Shown: positions 4,214-19,689 of the stretch, one piece after another
Layout of the letters: the number at the start of each line of letters is the position of its first letter
Position numbering within the stretch: the first letter of the stretch is position 1
NCBI GenBank assembly: GCA_021816695.1
Contig: JAKAXE010000017.1
Coordinates: forward strand, 1 to 34,832
DNA: 34,832 nucleotides
Direction of reading: 5' to 3'
From: a bacterium
GTDB lineage: Bacteria; Chloroflexota; Dormibacteria; Aeolococcales; Bog-877
Made by a program: the position numbers and the translations under genes
The notes under the pieces: generated by a model
Seen by the model: only the letters and a program-made list of their open reading frames with translations
Database searches by the model: none
Told to the model about the DNA's origin: nothing

Positions 4214-4299
4214 TGGCCCAGAGTTGGCTCAGGCCCGGGGTCGGCGCCGGGTGCACTCCCCGCTAATGCCGGGGCATCGCGGGTTGGTCGAGTTGCCCC

Positions 4300-5292
4300 T
4301 CAGCAACTCCAGGCGCCGGAGAGGATCAAGGAGTCGCCTGCCCGGTTGACGAAGCGGATGAACATCCGGCCGCGGTCGGTCCCGGCGAGGACGCTGAAGT
4401 CCCCCCCAACTCCTCCCCACAGGTCCCCAGGAATCCTCCCCACCTGGGAGGCGTCCCCCTGCAGGGAGAGCTCAGCGGCGGCGAAGGGACTGTTGACTGG
4501 GAGATCGGCGGGGGTGAGGGCTGGGTAGTACCAGCCTTCCCCCTGGTACTGGGGCAAATAGACCTGCAGGATGTAGGGCTGGCCGGCGAGCACCAGGGAC
4601 ATGGCCAGGTTGAACCTGCCGCTAGTGAACACCCCGCAGTTGGGGGCGCCACCCACCAGATCTGCCCCTGGGACCACGGCCTGGTCCACCTGAGCCTGGA
4701 TCGCGCCCGAGGCGATGAGCGCCTCGGAATGGTCCGGCCCCGTGGGAGGTGGGGAAGCGGAGGACCCCGCGGCCGGCGTGGAGCAAGACCAACCTCCCCC
4801 GAGCGTCTCGGTCTGGCCTGCCCCCTTCATCGACAGGGAGAGGGTCCCCCCCATGCCTCCCGCGGCCACACTCACCCACCCGGACCCGGCCGCGTAGACG
4901 CCCTGGAGGCTGGCCGTAGCCACCTGGACTGGGCCAGCTCCGGAGACGGAGTAGCGGCCGGGGCCCCCATAGTTGGGAAGGGCAAGGCGCAGAGTCTCGA
5001 CCCGCCCGGGAAGGCTGAGGTCCAGGACCGCGGAGAAGCCGGTACCGGCGTACACCCCGCAGGCGGTCGCGTAGGCGGACCTGACCTCACCCCGGATCGG
5101 GCCCTGGAGCACCAGGGACTGGGAAAGCGCCGCCCCAGAGGGGAGCGCCCCGGCGGGCAGGGGAGGCACTGCCGTCCGGCGCCGGCGGGCGCTCAGATGC
5201 GCGGCCGGCGAACCGCAACCGGCGACACCGGCCAGGCAGACGAATCCGCAGGCCGAGCCGACCAGCAGGCTGAGGAGGACGGTGCGCCTCAA
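4300..5292 (-). CDS. Predicted lipoprotein with two related Cys-paired domains, unknown function
   Basis: 330 residues. The start MRRTVLL, a hydrophobic stretch and VAGC with Cys26 form a lipoprotein signal peptide, so the protein should be lipid-anchored outside the membrane. The mature part seems to hold two related domains. Both contain a CGV motif (Cys78 and Cys219) followed by beta-rich sequence, and both end in WSC (GGGWSC at 165-170, SGAWSC at 325-330), joined by a Ser/Pro-rich linker around 171-190. Each CGV/WSC Cys pair could form a disulfide. I do not recognise the family. The only usable start in frame is TTG at 5292. It stands alone between meaB and an acyl-CoA dehydrogenase. Confidence 0.75.
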   Translation of the reverse strand: MRRTVLLSLLVGSACGFVCLAGVAGCGSPAAHLSARRRRTAVPPLPAGALPSGAALSQSLVLQGPIRGEVRSAYATACGVYAGTGFSAVLDLSLPGRVETLRLALPNYGGPGRYSVSGAGPVQVATASLQGVYAAGSGWVSVAAGGMGGTLSLSMKGAGQTETLGGGWSCSTPAAGSSASPPPTGPDHSEALIASGAIQAQVDQAVVPGADLVGGAPNCGVFTSGRFNLAMSLVLAGQPYILQVYLPQYQGEGWYYPALTPADLPVNSPFAAAELSLQGDASQVGRIPGDLWGGVGGDFSVLAGTDRGRMFIRFVNRAGDSLILSGAWSC

Positions 5293-14698: not shown

Positions 14699-16260
<1,562 letters not shown>

Positions 16261-16279
<19 letters not shown>

Positions 16280-16674
16280 AGCTCCACCAGAACCCCAAGG
16301 GCCGACCTCGGGTGGACGAAGGCCACCTGCCGCCCCCGGGCCCCCGGCCGGGGCGCCTCGTCGATCAGGACCGCCCCCCGCGACCGCCACTCGGCCAGCT
16401 CGGCCGGGAGGTCCCCAACCTCCAGTGCCAGGTGGTGGAGCCCCTCACCACGCCTCTCCAGGAAGCGCTGCACCGAGGACTCCGGCCCCCGGCTCGCCAG
16501 CAGCTCCAGCTCGGTCTCCCCCATCCTGAGGAAGGCCACCTCCACCCCATCCCCGGCCACCAGCTCGCGATGGACGGGGGGACCGGCCAGCGGTCGGTAG
16601 AACGCCAGCGCCAGGTCGAGGTCGCGGACCGCGATCCCGACGTGGTCGACGCGGCGGCCGCTCCAGCTGCTCAC
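16261..16674 (-). CDS. mce: Methylmalonyl-CoA epimerase
   Basis: 137 residues, a vicinal-oxygen-chelate fold protein that interconverts (S)- and (R)-methylmalonyl-CoA. Expected metal ligands are present: His11 in VDHVGIAV, a His in GEGLHHLALEV (80 or 81) and Glu131 in LVELCQ. The order epimerase-mutase-carboxylase beta covers the propionyl-CoA pathway. Start GTG 16674 has TAGACT 7 nt upstream, so an internal leaderless transcript may begin here although the EtfD-like gene ends only 19 nt before. The 3' end overlaps the mutase start by 19 nt. Confidence 0.93.
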
Positions 16675-16693: not shown

Positions 16694-18694
16694 TCAGTAG
16701 GTGAGCCCCATCGACTCGGCCACCAGGACCGCCACGTCCGCCGCCTGAAGGCTGCCCTGGAGGTCCTGCGAACTGATGCCCTCCTGGAACATGGTGGCGC
16801 AGAAGGGACACGCCAGCGCCGCCTGCCCGGCGCCGGTGGCCCGCGCCTGCTGGACCCGCACGCGGTTGACCCGCTCTCCTGCCTGCTCCTCCATGAAGAC
16901 CCTGCCCCCGCCGGCGCCGCAGCACATGGCGTCCTCGCGGCTCCGCTTCATCTCGGTGAGGCGGACCCCCGGGATCGCCTGGAGCAGCCGGCGGGGAGCG
17001 TCGTACTCCTTGTTCCACCTCCCGAGATAGCAGGGGTCGTGGTAGGTGAGGTTCCCCTCCCTGAGCTCGCGACTGAGCTGGATGCGCCCCTCTCTCAGGA
17101 GCTGCTCCAGCAGCTGGGTGTGGTGCACCACCTCGAACTTGGCCCCCAGGTCCGGGTACTCGTTGGCGAAGGTGTTGAGGCAGTGGGGGCAGCTGGCGAT
17201 CAGCTTGCGGACCCCGGCCCGCCCCAGCGTCTCCACCACCTGGCCGGCCTGGATCTGGAAGAGGTACTCATTGCCCAGCCGGCGGGCGGGGTCGCCGTTG
17301 CAGATCTCCTGCGGCCCCAGGACGGCGAAGCTGACCCCCGCCGAGGAGAGCACCTGCACCAGCGCCCGGGCGGTGGGCCAGTTGGACTCGTCGAAGGCGG
17401 TGGCGCAGCCCACCCAGTACAGGTACTCGGCGTCCGGGTGGTCGGCCAGGAGGGGCACCTGGAGCCCCTCCGCCCAGCGCATCCGTCCCTCCCTCGCCAC
17501 TCCGAAGGGGTTGCCCCGCTGCTCGATGGAATCCAGCGCCCGCTGCGCCTCCCGGGGCAACCTCGACTCCTCCAGAACCAGGGAACGCCTGAGGTCCACG
17601 ATCACCGGCACGTGCTCGATGAGCACGGGACACTGCTCCACGCAGGCGCCACAGGTGGTGCAGGACCAGAGCGTCTCCTCCTCCACGCTCCAGTCGACAA
17701 GGCGTTCGCCCCCCGCCCCCGCCCCCTGGTGCCAGAAACCGGCCGGCGGCGCCTCGCCCCGGGCCCTGGCCACGACCGCGTCGCGCAGGTCGGTCACCAG
17801 CAACTTCGGCGACAGCGGCTTGCCGGTGTTGAAGGCCGGGCAATGGGACTGGCAGCGGCCGCACTCCGTGCAGGTGAGCAGGTCCAGCTGCTGCTTCCAG
17901 GTGAGCTGCTGCGGCTGGGAGACCCCGAAGGTCTCGGAACCCTCCAGGTCCAGAAGCCTCAGGTGGCGGCCGGCTGGCTCCAGGCTGCGGAAGAAGACGT
18001 TGGGCGCGGCGGTCAGGATGTGCAGATGCTTGCTGCGCGCCAGGTAGACCAGGAATCCGGCGATCAGCAGAAGGTGAAGCCAGAGGAAGAGCTCGTGCCA
18101 GCCGTCCACCTCCCCCCGCCCCATGCCTCGGAACAGGCTGGAGACGGCGTCCGAGAAGGGCCGGAGATTGACCACCTGGTCCTGCCCGGCGGCGATCTGG
18201 GTGCCGTACAGGCCGAGCTGGGTCACCACCACCAGCCCGATGAGCAGGAGGATCCAGGTGGCGTCGCGCTGGTGGGAGCCGGTGAAGCGCCGTGGCCGCA
18301 GCAGGTAGCGGTTGAGCGCCGCCAGCGCCAGCCCCACCAGCACTCCCAGCGCCAGCAGGTCCTCAAGGAAGGCGATCGGGCCCCACCAGAACTGCTGGTC
18401 CAGGTTGAGCGGCGGCACCAGCGCCTCCAGCCCGGCCTGAAGGATCTCCAGGTTGAGGATGAGGAAGCCCCAGAAGATGAGGAAGTGGGCGAGCCCGGAG
18501 AAGGGCCAGGTCAGCAGCCGGCGCTGGCCCAGGACGTACTCCGCTACCCCCCGAAGCCTCTCGCCGAGCCGGCCGCCGCGGTCCTCGGGGGCGGCGGCGC
18601 GCAGCGAGGCCACCAGCGGGCCGAAGCGCCTCCAGCTGAGGGCGGCGGTAAGGGCCACCAGCGCCACCGCCGCCAGTGGGCTGAGCCAGATCAC
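16694..18694 (-). CDS. EtfD-like membrane iron-sulfur oxidoreductase (ETF:quinone type)
   Basis: 666 residues. An N-terminal NarI-like membrane part has helices near 5-20, 68-88, 107-128, 147-168 and 198-219, with possible heme ligands (for example His70, His200, His207). Next come two 4Fe-4S motifs (Cys275/278/281/285 and Cys345/348/351/355), then two CCG-type heterodisulfide-reductase-like domains with Cys430, 465, 502, 505 and Cys555, 591, 592, 629, 632. This order matches mycobacterial EtfD and the HdrDE-like ETF:menaquinone oxidoreductases, which pass beta-oxidation electrons from ETF to the quinone pool. The company of acyl-CoA genes supports that role; no ETF genes are in the window. 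GTG 18694 overlaps the preceding small gene by 4 nt (GTGA). Confidence 0.87.
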   Translation of the reverse strand: MIWLSPLAAVALVALTAALSWRRFGPLVASLRAAAPEDRGGRLGERLRGVAEYVLGQRRLLTWPFSGLAHFLIFWGFLILNLEILQAGLEALVPPLNLDQQFWWGPIAFLEDLLALGVLVGLALAALNRYLLRPRRFTGSHQRDATWILLLIGLVVVTQLGLYGTQIAAGQDQVVNLRPFSDAVSSLFRGMGRGEVDGWHELFLWLHLLLIAGFLVYLARSKHLHILTAAPNVFFRSLEPAGRHLRLLDLEGSETFGVSQPQQLTWKQQLDLLTCTECGRCQSHCPAFNTGKPLSPKLLVTDLRDAVVARARGEAPPAGFWHQGAGAGGERLVDWSVEEETLWSCTTCGACVEQCPVLIEHVPVIVDLRRSLVLEESRLPREAQRALDSIEQRGNPFGVAREGRMRWAEGLQVPLLADHPDAEYLYWVGCATAFDESNWPTARALVQVLSSAGVSFAVLGPQEICNGDPARRLGNEYLFQIQAGQVVETLGRAGVRKLIASCPHCLNTFANEYPDLGAKFEVVHHTQLLEQLLREGRIQLSRELREGNLTYHDPCYLGRWNKEYDAPRRLLQAIPGVRLTEMKRSREDAMCCGAGGGRVFMEEQAGERVNRVRVQQARATGAGQAALACPFCATMFQEGISSQDLQGSLQAADVAVLVAESMGLTY

Positions 18695-18867
18695 GGGTGG
18701 TCGAAGACCAGGAGCAGGGCCAGAGCACAGAGTCCCGCAACCACGGTGCAGGCCGCCACCAGCCAGTACCAGGACGGCTCTTCGATCCAGAACGGGCCCC
18801 ACCTCTGCCGGGCGCCGCCGGTGGAGCTGTTGGGATCCTCCCGGGGCGGCGGCTGGGCCTCGCTCAC
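18691..18867 (-). CDS. Small single-pass membrane protein coupled to the EtfD-like gene
   Basis: 58 residues. A polar Pro/Ser-rich N-terminal half (MSEAQPPPRED) is followed by an aromatic stretch (WGPFWIEEPSWYW, 23-35) and one membrane helix (about 36-55) ending in FDHP. The stop overlaps the start of the EtfD-like gene in GTGA, so translation is probably coupled. GTG 18867 is chosen over GTG 18873 because TACCAT lies exactly 7 nt upstream, the spacing seen at other leaderless starts here. No family is recognised. Size, topology and coupling suggest an accessory or assembly subunit of the membrane oxidoreductase. Its short length is the main doubt. Confidence 0.65.
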   Translation of the reverse strand: MSEAQPPPREDPNSSTGGARQRWGPFWIEEPSWYWLVAACTVVAGLCALALLLVFDHP

Positions 18868-18874
18868 GGCCACG

Positions 18875-18880
18875 ATGGTA
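18875..18880 (-). promoter_or_regulatory. -10 box, leaderless type, for the small protein/EtfD-like pair
   Basis: TACCAT on the minus strand, identical to the meaB box, 7 nt before GTG 18867. It lies in the 22 nt between the enoyl-CoA hydratase stop and the small gene. Confidence 0.4.
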
Positions 18881-18889
18881 GGCGGGAGC

Positions 18890-19678
18890 TCACCTCCCCG
18901 TCCAGACCGGCCGGCGCTTCTCCAGAAACGCCTTGATGCCCTCGGCGGCATCGGCCGTGCGGAAGGTCTCGTCGAAGTGCCCCAGCTCCTCCCCCAGCCC
19001 GGTCGCCAGAGGGCGGTCCATCCCCGCCGCCACCGCCCCCTTGATGGCCGCCACCGCCCGCGGTGCCTGGGCCGCCAGCTTCTCGGCCAGCTGCTGGGCC
19101 TCAGCCCGCAACTGCTCGGGCGCCACCACCCGGTTGACCAGGCCCAGGCGAAGGGCCGTCTCGGCGTCGATCTGCTCACCGGTGAGCAGGAGTTCCAGCG
19201 CCCTCCCCCGCCCCACCAGCCGGGGCAGCCGCTGGGTCCCTCCCCACCCGGGGATGATCCCCAGGAGGATCTCCGGTTGGCCCATCCGGCTGGTGGCTGC
19301 GGCCAGGCGCAGGTCGCAGGCCATGGCCAGCTCCAGACCACCGCCAAGGGCGTACCCGTTCACCGCCGCCACCAGGGGAAGGCGGGAGCTCTCCATCTCC
19401 AGGGTGAGCCGCTGGCCGTGCGCGATCTTCTCCCGGGTGGCGTCCGGGCCGTCCAGGACGAACTCCCCGATGTCCGCGCCGGCTACGAAGAACTTGTCAC
19501 CCGCCCCGGTGACCACCGCCGCCCCCACCTCGGGATCCTCCTCCAGCTCCGAGAGCGCCCGGCGAAGGCCCCCCAGAACCTCGCGGTTCAAGGCGTTGGC
19601 CGGAGGGTGGTCCACCGTGATCCAGCCCACCCTGCCCGAGCGGCCGACCGTGACCGGACCCTGCTGCTGCCCCTCCAT
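18890..19678 (-). CDS. Enoyl-CoA hydratase/isomerase family protein
   Basis: 262 residues, typical crotonase size. It should hydrate 2-enoyl-CoA to 3-hydroxyacyl-CoA in beta-oxidation. The oxyanion-hole segment FFVAGADIGEF (63-73) and the second one GYALGGGLELAMACD (108-122) are intact, as are both catalytic Glu residues of true hydratases: Glu116 in GGGLELA and Glu136 in QPEILLGIIPGWGGTQRL. ATG 19678 is preferred to the GTG at 19684 because GGGAGG (19684-19689) lies 5 nt upstream and would overlap the GTG. It is first in the minus-strand cluster that runs to pccB and is divergent from the gene at 19720. Confidence 0.93.
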   Translation of the reverse strand: MEGQQQGPVTVGRSGRVGWITVDHPPANALNREVLGGLRRALSELEEDPEVGAAVVTGAGDKFFVAGADIGEFVLDGPDATREKIAHGQRLTLEMESSRLPLVAAVNGYALGGGLELAMACDLRLAAATSRMGQPEILLGIIPGWGGTQRLPRLVGRGRALELLLTGEQIDAETALRLGLVNRVVAPEQLRAEAQQLAEKLAAQAPRAVAAIKGAVAAGMDRPLATGLGEELGHFDETFRTADAAEGIKAFLEKRRPVWTGR

Positions 19679-19683
19679 CCTCA

Positions 19684-19689
19684 CCTCCC
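19684..19689 (-). promoter_or_regulatory. Ribosome-binding site of the enoyl-CoA hydratase gene
   Basis: GGGAGG on the minus strand, 5 nt from ATG 19678. It rules out the in-frame GTG at 19684. Confidence 0.6.

Follow-up and report, generated by a model that had tools for sequence, protein, structure and literature searches.

The locus described here lies on the minus strand of a 34,832-nucleotide stretch of bacterial DNA, and this whole stretch is called the window below. The minus-strand order of genes is echA, a small frame, etfD, a probable methylmalonyl-CoA epimerase gene and a mutase-like gene. The features used in the analysis are listed below in this order.

18890 to 19684, minus strand: echA, encoding an enoyl-CoA hydratase/isomerase; upstream neighbour.
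18875 to 18880, minus strand: TACCAT, a -10-like box, 7 nt before the start codon of the small gene.
18691 to 18867, minus strand: small-protein gene with GTG start and TGA stop; encodes a single-pass membrane protein of 58 amino acids.
18763 to 18804, minus strand: conserved core of the small protein, R22-x-G-P-F-W-I-E-E-P-x-W-Y-W35; predicted cytoplasmic membrane interface.
18706 to 18774, minus strand: predicted transmembrane helix of the small protein, residues 32-54 (AlphaFold2 and hydropathy).
18691 to 18694, minus strand: GTGA, the four-base overlap of the small-gene stop and the etfD start.
16694 to 18694, minus strand: etfD, encoding a 666-amino-acid EtfD-type ETF:menaquinone oxidoreductase with five membrane segments, two 4Fe-4S sites and two CCG domains.
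16261 to 16674, minus strand: gene for a glyoxalase-superfamily protein, probably a methylmalonyl-CoA epimerase; downstream neighbour.
14699 to 16390, minus strand: gene for a methylmalonyl-CoA mutase-like large subunit in the same operon direction, with a tentative start codon and a name given from sequence and context.

The 58-amino-acid product of the frame running from 18867 to 18691 is MSEAQPPPREDPNSSTGGARQRWGPFWIEEPSWYWLVAACTVVAGLCALALLLVFDHP. The TGA stop codon of this frame occupies positions 18693 to 18691 and the GTG start codon of EtfD begins at 18694, such that the two genes share the sequence GTGA. The first-pass annotation had reported this frame together with an upstream box and the GTGA overlap, and each of these elements is present at the positions listed above.

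Relatives of this locus were compared by searching 101 related genomes with EtfD and then examining the DNA ahead of each etfD gene. In addition, a profile search covering the whole Dormibacterota family to which the window belongs, a family of uncultured soil bacteria, recovered the small protein in 17 of 18 genomes, with one copy in each. In the remaining genome (G006), the region is flanked by contig breaks. Wherever the locus is assembled (17 family genomes), the small gene lies directly before etfD with an NTGA overlap, and the etfD start codon is only ever GTG, ATG or TTG. The first-pass annotation had staked its proposal on conservation of the frame and its overlap among relatives, and both are indeed conserved at these loci. 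For the small frame, pN/pS among members of the genus is 0.36, compared with 0.96 and 1.75 in the two shifted frames, which shows that purifying selection acts on the small gene's own reading frame only. Because of its presence in 17 of 18 genomes, this contrast in pN/pS, and the restricted start codons downstream, the frame at 18691 to 18867 is confirmed by sequence comparison as a real gene that is more than a chance occurrence. Further matches in the same genome (L072-L074), considered as possible paralogues, were set aside as chance only.

A different view of this region would treat the small frame as a chance open frame or as a misread N-terminal part of EtfD. Long chance frames are common in high-GC DNA, and a 702-amino-acid frame with an EtfD start at 18802, which would give the enzyme an N-terminal extension, does cross the region in the window. 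However, relatives L002 and L010 carry in-frame stops that eliminate this upstream start. These stops, together with conservation in the small frame alone, purifying selection, and the same position in 17 of 17 loci, indicate that such a view is already refuted by the comparison, and we assign it a negligible probability.

The small protein consists of a variable polar N-terminus, a conserved core (GARQRxGPFWIEEPxWxW, with the consensus R-x-G-P-F-W-I-E-E-P-x-W-x-W), one helix, and a D-x-P ending. Residues R22, G24, F26, W27, E30, P31, W33, W35, D56 and P58 are invariant across the family, and five of these (P31, W33, W35, D56 and P58) are family-specific additions to a core shared with the sister-family homologue described below. 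The single membrane helix noted earlier is borne out both by hydropathy and by an AlphaFold2 single-chain model, in which one helix spans residues 32-54 with pLDDT values of about 95-98 over most of its length. From the positive residues before the helix, we predict that the N-terminus is inside and the C-terminus outside. Searches with the small protein yielded only chance-level matches in Pfam (best E 0.02), no match in NCBIfam, and nothing in the PDB either by sequence or by fold. These results agree with the earlier description of the protein as unrecognised. A regulatory leader peptide would be expected to be unconstrained or to conserve only its stall residues, and the small protein does not appear to be of this type because its core and helix are conserved across a frame with a pN/pS of 0.36.

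The large Fe-S protein, which the first-pass annotation had called EtfD-like, can be identified more precisely by comparison with Mycobacterium smegmatis EtfD (PDB 9ojn; phmmer E 2e-134). The heme b histidines of the M. smegmatis protein are His78 and His241 (PMC13083937), and on alignment to 9ojn both are kept in the window's protein as the H in GLAHFL (query position 70) and the second H of SKHLHI (query position 225). The aligned cluster ligands reside in the motifs CTECGRCQSHC, CTTCGACVEQC, VGCA, EICNGD, CPHC, HDPC, MCCGAGG and CPFC, in which all eight cubane-cluster cysteines and the CCG-domain ligands of the linear 3Fe-4S and non-cubane 4Fe-4S clusters are preserved. Because all cluster and heme ligands of 9ojn are kept, we conclude that the 666-amino-acid neighbour is, on sequence evidence, a genuine EtfD, for which electron uptake from ETF and reduction of menaquinone are predicted. 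The protein has five hydrophobic membrane segments, and its Fe-S domain is cytosolic. From this topology we expect the EtfD N-terminus to face outward, as the C-terminus of the small protein is predicted to do.

The box that had been described as the small gene's own -10 element is present as a promoter-like sequence and is shared by all 17 relatives, where the small-gene start is preceded at 7-9 nt by a TAnnnT-like box (TACCAT in 15, and TAGGAT and TGCCAT in the others). This arrangement predicts a leaderless transcript for the small gene. Because the conserved box spacing fits such a transcript, the start codon is assigned to 18867. An alternative start at the GTG at 18873, which would yield a protein of 60 amino acids, was rejected because this spacing and the alignment of starts favour 18867. 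No Shine-Dalgarno-like site was found in the 22 nt upstream of etfD in any of the 17 relatives, which suggests that translation of EtfD probably requires ribosomes that reinitiate after reading the small frame.

Coupling of translation by short gene overlaps is a general finding (PMC10666635), and this finding and the sequence together make translational coupling between the small gene and etfD well supported. The coupling that had been proposed from the window alone therefore appears to hold, given that the NTGA overlap and the lack of a Shine-Dalgarno-like site before etfD recur in 17 of 17 loci. Gene pairs spaced at -8 to +10 nt encode subunits of a complex in 30% of cases in E. coli and 45% in H. 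volcanii, compared with 6-7% for distant pairs (enrichments of 4.5-fold and 8.1-fold, respectively), although the same counts mean that 55-70% of the close pairs do not encode complex subunits (PMC10666635). These coupling statistics give a reasonable prior expectation that the small protein and EtfD are physical partners. In addition, a proline immediately precedes the small-gene stop in 17 of 17 loci. Termination can be slowed by a C-terminal proline (discussed in PMC7246954), and the invariant Pro-TGA could slow termination over the etfD start. This possibility is only suggestive because the third base of the proline codon is shared with the etfD start, and any base at that position specifies proline.

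The pairing of the small gene with etfD belongs to one family. In the sister family, which falls within the same order, the small frame is absent before etfD in the 20 loci read. Here echA lies directly before etfD, and was found upstream in 19 of the 20. Likewise, no small frame was found before EtfD genes in other families of the class. Within the window's family, genome G010 still carries the small gene and etfD as a pair, and echA is unmatched on this contig. Members of the family also encode a second EtfD-type protein, about 42% identical, that is preceded by an ETF-subunit-like frame (L047-L050), and a small membrane protein is absent beside it. Sister-family etfD loci L051, L052 and L070, for which translated frames only were viewed, may have a TATAAT-like box between echA and etfD, which suggests that a promoter at this site predates the small gene.

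When the phylum was searched with the profile, weak matches appeared in the sister family; these correspond to a single-copy protein of ~50 amino acids, composed of an R-x-G-P-F-W-I-E-E core and one helix, in which EEGxG replaces EEPxWxW. Profile comparison of this protein with the small protein by hhalign gave an E value of 1.2e-12. Of 32 sister-family genomes, 26 carry the homologue, whereas none of 60 genomes from the class's other families does. This tally was made with an alignment in which one N-terminal row contained a typing error; the profile comparison and the phylum search, run on corrected alignments, gave an unchanged picture. In all nine loci read (of 26), its gene lies upstream of a ~775-850-amino-acid protein, which is a class A penicillin-binding protein (PBP1A-type) in the three cases tested. 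Its stop codon lies roughly 70-120 nt before the start of the PBP frame in the loci read, with no overlap, and it also has a leaderless-type start. At L111-L119 (e.g., L112 near 4249-4400), for example, the conserved ~50-amino-acid membrane protein reads PLDEG...RRRVGPFWIEEG-TM, has no NCBIfam match, and is encoded with a leaderless-type start upstream of the class A PBP and divergently from an AAA-type ATPase.

In the other families of the class, no PBP gene was found with a homologue upstream. The window's family has kept PBP loci of this type without the small gene, and the window's own genome has such a locus with the same divergent ATPase, likewise without it. Each family thus appears to carry the gene once, at one of two complementary places, for which the simplest history would be a move, or a duplication with differential loss. 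The sister family's PBP-side location may be the ancestral context of the protein encoded in the window. The two proteins are short, with one helix each, and the case for their homology is a single strong motif, supported by the single-copy, complementary distribution. Matches from five genomes outside the order (G404, G411, G051, G083 and G205) were regarded as chance, being partial matches or having host-ORF length or internal stops; those of G083 and G205 were not read. On contig C12 of G404 (L103, near 1501-1617), an ABC-transporter permease-like frame has an N-terminus (GARKRRPPFWSSERPWIWLLP) that resembles the small-protein core, and this too is taken as chance. The small protein appears to be order-restricted.

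We hypothesize, with a probability of roughly 0.42, that the small protein is an accessory partner of EtfD that was captured into the etfD operon and is co-translated with the enzyme. In a comparably tentative extension of this proposal, it would be a previously undescribed integral-membrane subunit of an ETF:menaquinone oxidoreductase that one family recruited from a small protein found next to a PBP gene in the sister family. The small gene would open a small-etfD-(epimerase-mutase) operon as its first cistron, with transcription starting on or next to its start codon. Ribosomes that finish the small protein would then reinitiate on etfD, such that both proteins are made in a fixed ratio. 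The small protein would insert such that its N-terminus, which contains Arg, faces the cytoplasm and its C-terminus faces outward, and the FWIEEPxWxW belt would be located at the inner membrane face. The least certain steps are that the small protein would stabilise or help assemble the heme b/menaquinone membrane domain of EtfD in the window's family, and that the source of its recruitment would be the order-specific small membrane protein found upstream of the class A PBP in the sister family. The physical tie between the small protein and EtfD is one that we infer from operon structure only.

The motif conserved at the membrane interface and the residues specific to the family make an accessory role more likely, and the location of the sister-family homologue elsewhere and the absence of the small protein from other EtfD enzymes make it less so. 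A rival reading is a function that is order-wide and independent of EtfD, for example in the cell envelope or membrane, in which case the gene would have moved into the etfD promoter region in one family and been compacted into an overlap there, with co-translation being incidental. The single-copy homologue with core and helix in 26 sister-family genomes, upstream of a PBP-type gene where read, and the complementary absence of the small gene from the PBP locus of one family and from the etfD locus of the other, make this a serious competitor that we consider only slightly less likely than an accessory role. It accounts less readily for a strict NTGA overlap without a Shine-Dalgarno site before etfD across five genera, for retention of the small gene beside etfD in G010, where echA was not found, and for the extra residues that are fixed only in the etfD-linked version. 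The same overlap could instead mean that the small frame is mainly a translational device, whose leaderless first cistron loads ribosomes for etfD and whose Pro-TGA slows termination, with the peptide itself being of minor importance. The leaderless-type start, the missing Shine-Dalgarno site and the universal proline before the stop, given what C-terminal proline can do (PMC7246954), agree with such a device. However, we consider it improbable in view of purifying selection on the amino acids and the strong conservation of the interface motif and helix, and because the sister-family homologue ends well short of the PBP frame.

The first-pass annotation had proposed that the small protein is a structural or assembly subunit of the oxidoreductase. 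This idea gains partial support within the window's family, where the gene is always paired with etfD, but it is not supported for EtfD enzymes in general. The small frame is absent beside etfD in the 20 sister-family loci and in the rest of the class, as well as beside the second EtfD-type protein; the sister-family homologue sits beside a PBP rather than etfD; and no such chain was reported in the M. smegmatis structure (PMC13083937).

We found no small subunit of EtfD described in the literature. The enzyme connects beta-oxidation with the respiratory chain, to which it passes electrons from fatty acids, and it has attracted study as a drug target in tuberculosis. If the accessory-partner reading is correct, a co-translated partner in one lineage would mean that the EtfD membrane domain can accept an accessory helix. 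Moreover, homologues located before two unrelated membrane-protein genes in sister families would offer a clean test of whether overlap and co-translation predict physical association.

The window's EtfD resembles M. smegmatis EtfD in its heme and cluster ligands but lacks the long disordered C-terminal tail of the latter. It is also paired with a 58-amino-acid membrane protein, whereas the M. smegmatis structure comprises one polypeptide with no small subunit reported (PMC13083937). The sister-family protein (M.VPLDEG...RRRVGPFWIEEGxG-TM-RP) shares with the small protein its core, its one C-terminal helix, its single copy and its leaderless-type start. It differs in lacking the PxWxW part and a link to etfD, and in having a PBP gene at some distance downstream. 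Among respiratory enzymes, CydX, CcoQ and KdpF are small single-pass accessory subunits. No sequence relation to these proteins was found, and the small gene precedes its large partner whereas theirs follow, with the association here being putative. The small protein nevertheless resembles these subunits in its size class (about 30-60 residues), its one helix, its aromatic interface, and its being encoded beside a large membrane enzyme.
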